Source of the DNA: Opitutaceae bacterium
Lineage (GTDB): Bacteria > Verrucomicrobiota > Verrucomicrobiia > Opitutales > Opitutaceae
NCBI GenBank assembly: GCA_027485815.1
Contig: JAIXQE010000188.1
Span: 1 to 48,139 of the forward strand
Direction of reading: 5' to 3'
DNA length: 48,139 nucleotides
Shown piece by piece: positions 25,271-29,417 of this stretch (position 1 is its first letter; each line of letters opens with the position of its first letter). A program made the translations under genes and the position numbers. The notes beneath the pieces were generated by a model. It worked only from the letters and a program-made list of their open reading frames with translations. It searched no databases and had not been told where the DNA came from.

Positions 25271-26476
25271 ATGGCTCCGTACGCCCTGCTCCTGCTGGCC
25301 GCCGCGACCGCCGTGGTCGCCGCCCCCGTGCCGCCTCCGCGTGACCTCGCCGCCCTCTTCGCGTCGCAGGCCGAGCGGCTCGGTCCCATCCTCCGCGACC
25401 CGGCCGCGCACCGCGTCCAGGTCCTCGTCGCCGAACCGGTGCCGCTCCCCGACGGCACCCTCGGGGTGCGCCGCAGCGCCTATGGTGACCCCGCGCGGTA
25501 CTTCTACCCCGCCAGCACGGTGAAGCTCGCCGCCGCGGTCGCCGCCCTGCTCGAGCTCAACGCCCGCAACGCCCGCGACGGCACCGCCTGGGGCCTCGCG
25601 ACCCGCCTGCGCGTCGAGCCCCGCTTCCCGGGCGACCGGCTGATCGAGGCCGATGAGACGAACCGCGAGGGCGGCGCGCTGACCGTCGGCCACTGCATCC
25701 GCCGCATCTGCCTCGTGAGCGACAACGCCACGTTCAACCACCTCTACGAGCTGGTCGGCCAACGCCGCCTCAACGAGCGGATGTGGGAAGCCGGGTTCAC
25801 CTCCTTCCGCCTCCACCACCGCCTGGCCGAGGCGCGACCCCCCGCCGAACAGCGCCAGCACCGTCCGGTCGTCCTCGAGGACCGGGGCGCCACGCTGCGG
25901 ATCGCGCAGCCCGACAGCACGCTCGAGCTGGTGAACGACCTCTGGACCGACCAGCGCCTCGGGGTCGCGCGGATGGAAGGCGGCCGCCGGCTCGAGGAAC
26001 CGCTCGCCTTCGACACCAAGAACGCCGTCCGCCTGGCAGACCTCCAGGACCTGCTGCTGGCGGTGGTGAAGCCCGAGCTGCGCACGGGCCGCCGCGGGTT
26101 CCCGGAACTGACGGTGGAGCAGCGAGCCTTCCTCGTGCGCGCGCTGGGTGAGTACCCGCGGGAGTCGGCCAACCCGGTGTACGACCCGGCCAAGTACCCG
26201 GACGACTACGTGAAGTACGTGCTGCCCGGGCTCACGCGGGTCATCCCCGCGGCCCACCTGCGGATCTACTCGAAGGTCGGCTGCGCCTACGGGAACTCGA
26301 TCGAGAACACGTGGATCGAGGACACGCGCACCGGTCGGGGCTTCGCGCTCGCCGCCGTGGTGTACACCAATCCCGACGGCGTGATGAACGACGACCAGTA
26401 CGCCTACGAGACCCTGGCGTGGCCGTTCCTCGCCGCCGTCGCCGAGGTGGTCGCCCGCGCGGTGCTGGCGCCCTGA
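25271..26476 (+). CDS. Exported serine hydrolase, class A beta-lactamase-like fold
   Basis: 401 residues. Signal peptide (APYALLLLAAATAVVAAP). The penicillin-recognising enzyme motifs are in order: SxxK as STVK (Ser-82, Lys-85), SDN (150-152) and a KTG equivalent KVG (335-337). This is the beta-lactamase2/PF13354 type of serine hydrolase. It lacks an obvious class A omega-loop ExxLN, and the SDN-to-KVG distance is long, so a true beta-lactamase is unlikely; a peptidoglycan- or ester-related hydrolase is more likely. The chosen ATG 25271 begins the signal peptide; the long open frame upstream to 24053 overlaps other genes and is a shadow. Converges with the esterase operon across a repeat-filled gap. 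Confidence 0.85.
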   Translation: MAPYALLLLAAATAVVAAPVPPPRDLAALFASQAERLGPILRDPAAHRVQVLVAEPVPLPDGTLGVRRSAYGDPARYFYPASTVKLAAAVAALLELNARNARDGTAWGLATRLRVEPRFPGDRLIEADETNREGGALTVGHCIRRICLVSDNATFNHLYELVGQRRLNERMWEAGFTSFRLHHRLAEARPPAEQRQHRPVVLEDRGATLRIAQPDSTLELVNDLWTDQRLGVARMEGGRRLEEPLAFDTKNAVRLADLQDLLLAVVKPELRTGRRGFPELTVEQRAFLVRALGEYPRESANPVYDPAKYPDDYVKYVLPGLTRVIPAAHLRIYSKVGCAYGNSIENTWIEDTRTGRGFALAAVVYTNPDGVMNDDQYAYETLAWPFLAAVAEVVARAVLAP

Positions 26477-26490
26477 GGCTGTGGGTTGTG

Positions 26491-26733
26491 GTGGCCGCGG
26501 CCTTGGCCGCGGATTCGCTGGCTTTCGTTTGGTGTAGCCGGGGCGCGGCGCCCCGGTGCGCATCGGCCGAAACACCCTCCGTGACTGCCTCCCGCTTGAA
26601 ACGCGCAGGCTGCGCCGGAGGCACGGCGTTCCCGCCGTCCGGGGCACGATGTCCCGGCTACATCGAGCCGCTGCCTTGCGGTCCCAACGAGGGTAAGCCT
26701 TGGCGGCTCATCCGCGGCTGCAGCCGCGGCCAC
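26491..26733. repeat. Mosaic of hairpin repeat modules in inverted orientation (REP/BIME-like)
   Basis: The 292-base convergent gap is filled by small palindromic modules. Outer pair: GTGGCCGCGGC-N4-GCCGCGGAT at 26491-26514 and its inverted copy at 26710-26733; 20 of 24 bases match and only the four-base loop differs (CTTG versus TGCA). Inner pair: TGTAGCCGGG-N7-GCCCCGG at 26533-26556 and inverted at 26639-26662; only the seven-base core differs. Between them are further hairpins: GCGCAG/CTGCGC (26603-26615) and ACGGCG-TTCC-CGCCGT (26623-26638). Conserved stems with variable loops indicate selection for RNA or cruciform structure. No protein-coding potential is visible. It may also serve as a bidirectional terminator. 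Confidence 0.7.
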
Positions 26734-26768
26734 ATCCGAGCCGCGGCTATATCCCGACTGCGGCCGGC

Positions 26769-28559
26769 TCAGGCGCCCGGGGGCGGGTTGCCGGTCGCCT
26801 GCACCTTGCGGCGGAAGATGGCGTTGCCATTGGTGACGTAGAGGTAGCCCAGTCCGGGGCCGGACAAGGTGCAGCTGGTGAGCGGCTGGTCGGGCTGGGG
26901 CTTGGTGAGCACGCCGCAGAGGCGACCGGTCGGGTCGAAGACCTGGATCCCCAGCGGACTGGCGACGTACCAGCGGCCCGCGGTGTCGCTGGTCATCCCG
27001 TCCCCACCCGAGGCCTTCCGGTAGGGCGGCGGCTGGTTGAACTTGAACTCGCCCTTCGGATCGATCGGGCGGCGCAGGGTCATGTAGGGCGCCCGCGCGT
27101 CGAGGGTGCCGTCCGGCTGCACGCGGTAAACCTGCACGTGCTCCCCGCCCGCCTCACTCACGGCCAGGGTGTCATGGCGCGGCGACAGGGTGATGCCGTT
27201 GGGGTTCGCGAGGCCGGTGTCGGCCGCGCGCTTCTCGCGCGTCCGCGGATCGAGGAAGGTCACCTGCTTCTTTCCGGTTTCGGTGAAGAAGACGTGCCCG
27301 CGGCGGGTCACGGCGAGATCGTTCGGCTGCACGTCCTCGGTGAGGACCTCGATCGCCCCCGTGGCCGGGGTGATCGCGATCAGGCGGCGCTTGGCGCCCT
27401 GGCAGGCATACAGCCGGCCGTCGGGGCCGAACTTCATCCCGCTCACGCCCTCCTCGCTGAGGCGGGTGCGGGTGCCGTCGGGGGCGATCCGGTACACGCC
27501 GGCCGCGGGCGGGCGCATATCCGAGTAATAGAAGTTGCCCGCGGCGTCGGTGCAGGGCGCGTCGGCGAAGGCGAGGCCGTCGACCACCTTGGTCCAGCCC
27601 TCGCCCTCGACGAGCAGGCGGTGGAGGGTGAAGTCGCTGGCGAGGTCGCCCTTGGTCACGATCTCCGGGCGGTGGGTCTCCGCGCGCCAGAGCCAGCGCA
27701 GGGCGTCGGGGAAGAGGCTGCCGCCGTGATCGGCGTTGTGGCCGTAACCCTCCGCGTAGTCGAAGCGGACGTCGTAGCCCATGTAGCGGAGCGCGGCGTG
27801 CATCTGCTGGTTGGCGAGGGGCCAGTTGCCGTACGGGTTGTCGAGGTCGCCCGAGGCGTCCTCGAGGTAGACGCGGAGGGGCTTGCGCTCGGTCTTGCGG
27901 ATGAGGGACGGGTAAGCGTCGCCGCCCGCGAGGTGGACGAAGCTGCCGATGGTCGAGAGCACCTTGCGGAACTGGTCGGGTCGCTCCCACGCCGCGGTGA
28001 AGGCCGCAATCCCGCCGCTGCTCGAGCCCACCAAGGCACGACGCTCGGGATCGGCGGAGAACGGGTGCGTCTTGGCGACCGCGGGCAGAATCTCCTCCAG
28101 CAGGAAGCGCGCGTAGCGGTCACCAAGGGAGTTGTACTCCAGACTGCGGTTGCTGGGGCTGCCCGGCCGCTTCGGTGCCCCCTTCGACGGGTCGTGGCCC
28201 GGATTGATGAAAATCGCGAGGGTGACGGGCATTTCCCCGCGGGCGATGAGGTTGTCGAGGACGACGGGCGCGCGCCACGGGCCGGTGGGGCGGAGGTAAT
28301 TGGCCCCGTCCTGGAAGATCATCAGCGCGGCGGTGCCGTCGGGCTTGTACTGGGCCGGCACGTAGAGCCACCAGTCGCGGGTGGTGGCGGGGAAGACCTG
28401 CGACGCCCAGGCGGGCTGGGGCAGGACGGTGCCAGTGGGCACGCCGGGGCGGGGCTCGTGGTCCGGCGTGGGCCGGAACGCGCTGGGCGCGGCGGCGGGG
28501 AGGGGCGCGGCCGCGAGGAGCAGCGCGGCGAGAAGGGGAGAGGAGCGGAGGAGGGACAT
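26769..28559 (-). CDS. Secreted esterase fused to SMP-30/gluconolactonase-like propeller
   Basis: 596 residues. Signal peptide (SLLRSSPLLAALLLAAAPLPAAA). Residues about 35-295 are an alpha/beta-hydrolase of the esterase D/Fes-like (CE1-related) type: WWLYVPAQYKPDG, LMIFQDGANY, nucleophile elbow GSSSG (178-182; Ser-180), and GYGHNADHGGSLFPDALRWLW with the probable catalytic His-278. Residues about 305-590 are an SMP-30/gluconolactonase/LRE propeller (APCTDAAGNFYYSD, GPDGRLYACQG, PNDLAVTRRGHVFFTET, LANPNGITLSP). The fusion suggests two sequential ester or lactone hydrolyses outside the cytoplasm. It is the last gene of the importer operon, 12 bases after a paralogous stand-alone esterase. Confidence 0.88.
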   Translation of the reverse strand: MSLLRSSPLLAALLLAAAPLPAAAPSAFRPTPDHEPRPGVPTGTVLPQPAWASQVFPATTRDWWLYVPAQYKPDGTAALMIFQDGANYLRPTGPWRAPVVLDNLIARGEMPVTLAIFINPGHDPSKGAPKRPGSPSNRSLEYNSLGDRYARFLLEEILPAVAKTHPFSADPERRALVGSSSGGIAAFTAAWERPDQFRKVLSTIGSFVHLAGGDAYPSLIRKTERKPLRVYLEDASGDLDNPYGNWPLANQQMHAALRYMGYDVRFDYAEGYGHNADHGGSLFPDALRWLWRAETHRPEIVTKGDLASDFTLHRLLVEGEGWTKVVDGLAFADAPCTDAAGNFYYSDMRPPAAGVYRIAPDGTRTRLSEEGVSGMKFGPDGRLYACQGAKRRLIAITPATGAIEVLTEDVQPNDLAVTRRGHVFFTETGKKQVTFLDPRTREKRAADTGLANPNGITLSPRHDTLAVSEAGGEHVQVYRVQPDGTLDARAPYMTLRRPIDPKGEFKFNQPPPYRKASGGDGMTSDTAGRWYVASPLGIQVFDPTGRLCGVLTKPQPDQPLTSCTLSGPGLGYLYVTNGNAIFRRKVQATGNPPPGA

Positions 28560-28571
28560 CGGGGCGGGGCT

Positions 28572-29417
28572 TCAGGGTTGGGGCCAGTCGCGCCAGAGCC
28601 AGCGCAGGGTGTCGGCGAAGATGCTGCCCCCGTGCTGGGCGCTGTGGCCGCCGTCGCCGAGGACGAGGCGGTGGTCGTAGCCGGCGAAGGCGAGGGCGGC
28701 GGCCAGCTCGCGGTTGGCGAGGGGCCAGTTGCCGTGGAGGTTGTCGAGGTCGTTGACGCCTTCCTGGAGGAAGACGCGGAGCGGCTTCGCGGGCTTGGTC
28801 TGCCGGATGATCCCGGGGTAGGCGTAGCCGCCCCGGATGTTGGTGTAGCTGCCGATGTGGCTGATGACCTTGCGGAACTGGTCGGGACGCTCCCACGCCA
28901 CGGTGAAGGCGGCGATCGCGCCCGAGCTGTTGCCGGCGACGGCGCGGCCGGCGGGGTCGGCGGTGACGTTCAGGCCCCGCGTGGCGGCGGGCAGGAGTTC
29001 CTCCAGCAGGAAGCGGGCGTTGGTGTCGCCGAGGGAATCGTACTCGAGGCTCCGGTGGTTGCGCGGCGGTGCGCCCGGCTCGGCGGAGGGAACGACGCCG
29101 GGGTTCACGCCGACGGCGATCAGGACGGGGATTTCGCGGCGGGCGATCAGCTCGTCGAGGACGGCGGGCAGCTTGAAGGCGCCCTTGGGGTTGAAGAACC
29201 CGGCGCCGTCGAAGCACACCAGCAGGCAGGCGGGCCGCGCCGGGTCGTACTGGGCGGGCACGTAGACCTGGTACTCGCGCGTGGTGCCGGGGTAGATCCG
29301 GCTGGTCGCGAAGGTGCCGGTGCGGATCTCGCCGCGGGGCACGGCGGGGGCCGGATCGGCGGCGAGGGCGCGCGGGAGCGCGGCGAGCAGGGCGAGGAGG
29401 AGGAGCGGGAGGGGCAC
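28572..29417 (-). CDS. Secreted esterase, CE1/enterochelin-esterase-like
   Basis: 281 residues. Signal peptide (PLPLLLLALLAALPRALA). Single alpha/beta-hydrolase domain paralogous to the N-terminal half of the next gene: REYQVYVPAQYDP, LLVCFDGAGFF, NHRSLEYDSLGDTNARFLLEELLP in parts, nucleophile elbow GNSSG (162-166; Ser-164), and GGHSAQHGGSIFADTLRWLWRDW with the probable catalytic His. The start is GTG 29417. The gene follows the second binding-protein gene after 8 bases, so it is co-transcribed with the ABC importer. The natural ester substrate is unknown; feruloyl/acetyl-sugar esters, siderophore lactones or esterified peptides all fit the family. Confidence 0.86.
   Translation of the reverse strand: MPLPLLLLALLAALPRALAADPAPAVPRGEIRTGTFATSRIYPGTTREYQVYVPAQYDPARPACLLVCFDGAGFFNPKGAFKLPAVLDELIARREIPVLIAVGVNPGVVPSAEPGAPPRNHRSLEYDSLGDTNARFLLEELLPAATRGLNVTADPAGRAVAGNSSGAIAAFTVAWERPDQFRKVISHIGSYTNIRGGYAYPGIIRQTKPAKPLRVFLQEGVNDLDNLHGNWPLANRELAAALAFAGYDHRLVLGDGGHSAQHGGSIFADTLRWLWRDWPQP

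Follow-up and report, generated by a model that had tools for sequence, protein, structure and literature searches.

The window analysed here is a stretch of 48,139 nucleotides from an Opitutaceae bacterium (assembly GCA_027485815.1, contig JAIXQE010000188.1), 92% of which is coding according to a codon-usage gene caller. In this window, two convergent genes are separated by a 292-bp gap (26477..26768), within which two inverted pairs of hairpins are nested, in the order B, A, A, B from left to right (Table 1). The neighbour of the right-hand gene (28572-29417, - strand) also carries a PF00756 esterase domain, and paralogues of both PF00756 genes lie adjacent, with their order kept, in several congeners.

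Table 1. The gap between the two convergent genes, its flanking genes and its parts (window coordinates)
Feature	Coordinates	Strand	Description
Left gene	25271..26476	+	PF13354 (Beta-lactamase2) family protein; stop codon 26474-26476; start codon from our own gene call
Right gene	26769..28559	-	Esterase (PF00756) and SMP-30-like (PF08450) protein, 596 aa
Outer B doublet	26491..26733		243 bp; 113 bp once the inner A doublet is subtracted
Left family-B unit	26491..26512	+	GTGG tag and hairpin CCGCGGC-CTTG-GCCGCGG
Inner A doublet with a few flanking bases	26527..26671		Tags outward; 130 bp from tag to tag
Left family-A unit	26533..26556	+	TGTAG tag and hairpin CCGGGGCG-CGG-CGCCCCGG
Small hairpin	26623..26638		ACGGCG-TTCC-CGCCGT, in the A spacer; read directly from the sequence
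Right family-A unit	26639..26662	-	One A.C mismatch in the stem
Right family-B unit	26712..26733	-	GTGG tag and hairpin CCGCGGC-TGCA-GCCGCGG
Palindrome	26739..26748		AGCCGCGGCT, immediately beyond the right B unit; direct-repeat family D3; read from the sequence

The initial annotation described two 24-base hairpin modules, each present twice in inverted orientation, and both pairs are indeed found: the outer pair (26491-26514 and 26710-26733) is 83% complementary and the inner pair (26533-26556 and 26639-26662) 79%. The modules were correct as written, except that the seven-base “core” ascribed to module A includes stem positions. The A stem is perfect in the + copy and is interrupted by a single A.C mismatch in the - copy (CCGGGACA...TGCCCCGG), so the right A copy falls outside the strict pattern used below. 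The further hairpins mentioned there are also present, one between the A units and one outside the right B unit. Folded as DNA, 26485-26740 reaches a z of -4.10, and none of 200 shuffles folded as well. The inner A doublet (26527..26671) is 78% identical to a doublet on contig C7. A structured RNA family was rejected as a candidate for the block (no Rfam match at the gathering threshold in the window), as were an intrinsic terminator or sigma-70-type promoter (none found in 26300-26950), a phage origin (no DNA similar to the window block in the phage collection) and a plasmid origin (no DNA similar to the REP region of locus L103 in the plasmid collection).

Neither module is unique to this locus. 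Family A was searched with a strict pattern of TGTAG and CCGGGG...CCCCGG, and family B with GTGG and CCGCGGC-N4-GCCGCGG, in the assembly of the same genome (4,080,143 bp in 232 contigs, completeness 97.18%). The strict A hairpin has 91 copies and the strict B hairpin 64, against none for either reversed pattern, and TGTAGCCGGG occurs 120 times in these 4.08 Mb against 8 times for its reversed pattern. The repeated occurrence of both motifs is not due to chance. The intergenic preference anticipated by the initial annotation holds as well: with genes called by a short codon-usage script rather than a standard program, 152 of the 155 strict units are intergenic (90/91 A and 62/64 B), the exceptions being one A unit that overlaps a called gene and two B units inside called genes. 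Moreover, convergent gaps are preferred by A and B units, making up 47 of the 82 occupied gaps versus 7 of the 32 other gaps of the window and 17 of the 169 unoccupied gaps in the examined loci; the window gaps are the fairer baseline because the examined loci were picked for holding elements. Clusters of four to seven A units per short stretch or contig are seen at G000:C229:11240-11555 and G000:C13:558-3450, and elsewhere single doublets are the rule.

On loci chosen for their elements, scrambled tags give 5-42 hairpins versus 103 for GTAG and 90 for GTGG, a conservation that is only partly independent evidence since the tag letters belong to the search pattern. Where same-family units are neighbours (at most 400 bp apart), their tags point outward in 40 of 51 pairs. 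For family A (31 pairs), 21 have outward tags, 8 inward tags and 2 are in tandem; for family B (20 pairs), 19 have outward tags, two of these being overlapping palindromes, and one has inward tags. The ends of the doublets are conserved and the spacer is variable, and units also occur singly, outside doublets. Two B units (L199, G000:C59:25674-25699, and L230, G000:C179:5161-5186) are fully symmetric and carry the tag on either side (GTGGCCGCGGCTGCAGCCGCGGCCAC), resembling a doublet reduced to a single hairpin.

Within the hairpins, the first variable pair of the A stem is Watson-Crick in all 90 equal-length units (A-T 45, C-G 44, T-A 1), compared with a mean of 44.1 and a maximum of 61 in shuffles that ignore the relatedness of copies. 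By the same measure, the next A pair is Watson-Crick in 85/90 (shuffle mean 60.7, maximum 70) and the innermost outer-loop pair of B in 54/63 (shuffle maximum 36). The outer stem is uninformative on covariation because it is fixed by the search pattern. Thus, the inner A stem positions covary and the A hairpin is conserved as a structure, which would suit an RNA function as well as a transposase substrate. In addition, 16/91 A and 7/64 B units have ACGAAA in the 30 bases after the hairpin, versus 0.05% of the 30-mers of the window, which suggests that the two families share part of their body. Partners in a doublet carry different loops in 16 of 21 A doublets and 14 of 17 B doublets, values reached by 8.1% and 1.6% of shuffles with loop classes that we defined ourselves, a faint hint of a preference for different-loop partners. 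The dinucleotides expected as cleavage sites beside the hairpin, CT for GTAG and CC for GTGG in one system, stand upstream of 42/90 A units (CT; shuffle mean 36.5, maximum 50) and 32/64 B units (CC; shuffle mean 26.9, maximum 37), with no clear enrichment of either.

The two families differ in their distribution. Strict A is present in 17 of 27 genomes of the genus (this one included) and in 6 of 177 genomes sampled across the order, that is, in 6/15 of the same family and 0/162 outside it. Strict B is all but confined to this species, with 64 copies here versus 0-4 per genome in the 26 others of the genus. Sixty-eight strict A units were counted in genome G160 (one contig, 5,957,605 bp), which we take to be Opitutus terrae PB90-1. 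A 400-kb sample of G160 holds GTAG-CCGGGG hairpins (8) and a GTGG family with the stem CACGGG (13), and CCGCGGC, the family-B stem, was not among the frequent tagged stems seen in it. In this sample (L304-L323), GTAG stems CCGGGG, GGCCGG, CGGCAG and GGCGGG coexist with the GTGG stem CACGGG.

The same gaps were also compared in relatives. Four congeners (G019, G009, G010 and G007) have the same gene pair, with a right-hand protein 97, 96, 96 and 95% identical to that of the window, respectively, and in them the gap measures only 7, 6, 22 and 19 bp and holds no A or B motif. Thus, this lineage probably acquired the block by insertion. The comparison was extended to 13 loci, the window and 12 chosen from 27 candidate gaps, of which nine gave comparators; L182, L221, L234 and L213 gave none, although by its coordinates L213 appears almost empty in G009. 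At the six loci containing B units (window included), none of the 14 locus-genome comparisons holds either exact motif, and all 14 gaps are shorter than here. Of the three A-only loci with comparators, two are not simple empty sites: at L247, G021 has an A unit, G010 carries a degenerate copy and G007 lacks an exact one, and at L223, G009 has an A unit in a 1,053-bp gap. At the third, L209, both relatives lack an exact A unit, a site present in duplicate being counted a single time. These comparisons make the B insertions look recent and nearly lineage-private, and the A insertions older and shared. The dimensions of the block also speak to the order of events. The 16 other non-overlapping outward B doublets are 69-123 bp long, eight of them 110-112, and subtraction of the 130-bp A doublet from the 243 bp of the outer one leaves 113 bp, the usual B-doublet length. 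Hence, the A doublet was probably inserted into the B doublet, an order deduced from length because the spacers are too variable for alignment to show it.

Taken together, the block is very probably a nested pair of REP doublets, of the REPIN or BIME type, moved by a RAYT. The initial annotation had offered structural selection or a mobile REP/BIME-like family, and dispersal, intergenic bias and the absence of the block in four congeners support this. Both families show what is expected of GTAG/GTGG-tagged REPs, namely a tag with a stem-loop, a high copy number with mostly extragenic positions, and structural conservation of the stem; they also show what is expected of REPINs, inverted unit pairs with a spacer that are missing as entire doublets from the corresponding gaps of relatives. 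In single-stranded DNA, each hairpin together with the GTAG or GTGG tag on its 5' side would be the recognition site of a RAYT (TnpA_REP, of the Y1/HUH type), and two inverted units with outward tags would form a short non-autonomous element copied or moved to new sites, its two units presumably travelling as one. At this locus, a family-B doublet would have entered the short gap between the convergent genes, and a family-A doublet would later have entered its spacer. Convergent gaps may be the places where insertion harms least.

Such repeats have precedents. In the excerpts consulted, REPs are defined by a GTAG or GTGG tetranucleotide 0-2 nt 5' of a stem-loop (PMC6006769), and repeats with such tags are the RAYT substrates of the TnpA_REP/REPtron systems of E. 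coli, S. maltophilia and Marinomonas (PMC8266576). The GTAG tag beside the hairpin is common to those systems, as excerpted, and to the families described here, which are known from sequence alone. According to the same excerpts, a variant tagged GTGG is cleavable in vitro in the Marinomonas system, and the S. maltophilia type combines a perfect palindrome of 8 bp with a loop of 3 nt, an arrangement also possible for the inner A hairpins (PMC8266576). In the excerpted report on P. fluorescens SBW25, REPINs are mobile inverted REP doublets in extragenic space (Bertels and Rainey 2011, PMC3116915). Our doublets resemble them in their inverted units, conserved ends, variable spacer, long hairpin fold and extragenic position. 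However, at about 110-135 bp they are mostly longer than the 71 bp between 16-mers given there for the GI type, and, unlike those REPINs, they come from an assembly with no RAYT match.

The closest precedent is Opitutus terrae, for which Di Nocera et al. 2013 (PMC3733652), as excerpted, report GTAG-tagged REP families, one of which (GTAG-20) mostly carries GTGG. There, a 5' GTAG is followed by a perfect stem-loop, sub-families differ by complementary stem changes, doublets with outward tags are common, and convergent and unidirectional gaps are preferred. The likeness covers the bacterial family, the tag and stem-loop, the outward doublets and the preference for convergent gaps, and A and B were set beside the numbered O. 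terrae families by their excerpted descriptions; in contrast to those REPs, only 3 of our 155 units touch a called gene (PMC3733652). Among the papers listed by literature searches on such repeats in Verrucomicrobia or Opitutaceae, no other report on them was recognised. Thus, A and B are further families of an already reported REP type. REP/REPIN repeats had been described in this bacterial family before, which makes the finding genuine but for the most part unremarkable.

One may argue that the hairpins are kept for a host RNA function, as two-way terminators or 3'-end stabilisers of convergent transcripts, and that their spread is secondary. The bias towards convergent gaps (47/82) is strong, and the gap folded as RNA (26477-26768) is very stable, at -169.6 kcal/mol with a z of -3.96, none of 200 shuffles folding as well. 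Moreover, Di Nocera et al. suggest, in the excerpted text, that many REPs are transcribed and work at the RNA level (PMC3733652). Yet a search of 26300-26950 for terminator-like sites with a T-run came up empty, the gene pair is kept in four congeners without any block, and the tags, useless to a terminator, are nevertheless conserved (a conservation partly built into the search pattern). We therefore regard this explanation as very unlikely, and it would in any case be compatible with mobility.

Alternatively, the block may be ancestral, each of the four relatives having lost it on its own through deletion. Excision of REP doublets has been reported in P. fluorescens (PMC3116915, as excerpted). 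However, all four relatives having the gene pair lack the block, and the near-absence of strict B from the other 26 genomes of the genus is at odds with an ancestral element. By parsimony, then, the block was probably gained here rather than lost in the relatives, and we give ancestry even less credence than a host RNA function.

The RAYT that would move the doublets was anticipated by the initial annotation elsewhere in the genome. This was only partly borne out, in that the assembly of this genome gave no match but a RAYT-like gene flanked by A units exists in a congener (G009). Specifically, Y1_Tnp had no match in this assembly at E up to 10, and the G009 protein none at E up to 1e-5, which does not prove absence because the assembly is in 232 contigs and 97.18% complete. 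It is plausible that a RAYT of this genome fell into assembly gaps; 8 of the 155 units lie within 200 bp of contig ends versus 3.5 expected. Across the 27 genomes of the genus, this one included, Y1_Tnp has matches in 23 and the G009 protein in 21. The G009 protein, encoded on contig CAIOTK010000201.1 (by sequence match an uncultured Opitutae bacterium), is 307 aa long, has NHFH and YIHLNP motifs and scores 47 bits for Y1_Tnp against a cut-off of 23, but stays under the NCBIfam REP_Tyr_transpos cut-off (59.1 versus 80 bits). Exact A units lie both upstream and downstream of its gene (L103:451-1371), and a one-mismatch A unit forms an outward doublet downstream. Protein P0001 had no relative among solved-structure sequences at E up to 0.1.

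The association of A units with a RAYT is confined to that locus among the best matches listed, which comprise 34 entries or 31 distinct loci (three are duplicate public records, and partial genes are included). Hence, the remaining RAYTs observed have different repeats as partners or no repeats at all, and no RAYT is linked to family B. Genome G024 has 44 matches to the G009 RAYT, many of them short or with stop codons, and only one strict A unit; these look like a graveyard of RAYT fragments. Least probable of all is that the block is not a RAYT-linked REP but a hairpin-ended MITE belonging to another transposase class, that of DDE insertion sequences. The inverted ends, a length near 110-130 bp and the lack of a RAYT match in this assembly would also fit such an element, but a 5' GTAG or GTGG tag directly against a perfect hairpin, with outward doublets and single units, is the REP pattern (PMC3733652, as excerpted), and A units flank the RAYT-like gene of G009. 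RAYT-moved REP doublets thus remain our preferred reading. As an extension of it, which we consider doubtful, family B might be a newly arisen GTGG-tagged orphan REP family, without a RAYT of its own, that reached about 64 units after the split from sister species with hardly any and was mobilised in trans by a family-A RAYT since lost.

In summary, the general view of REP elements is unchanged by this finding. Its value lies in a clean comparative set, in which gaps occupied in one species can be matched with their empty counterparts in congeners, and in which one REP family is shared across the bacterial family and another is found almost solely in one species. With such a set, the birth of REP families and their dependence on RAYTs could be tested outside Proteobacteria.
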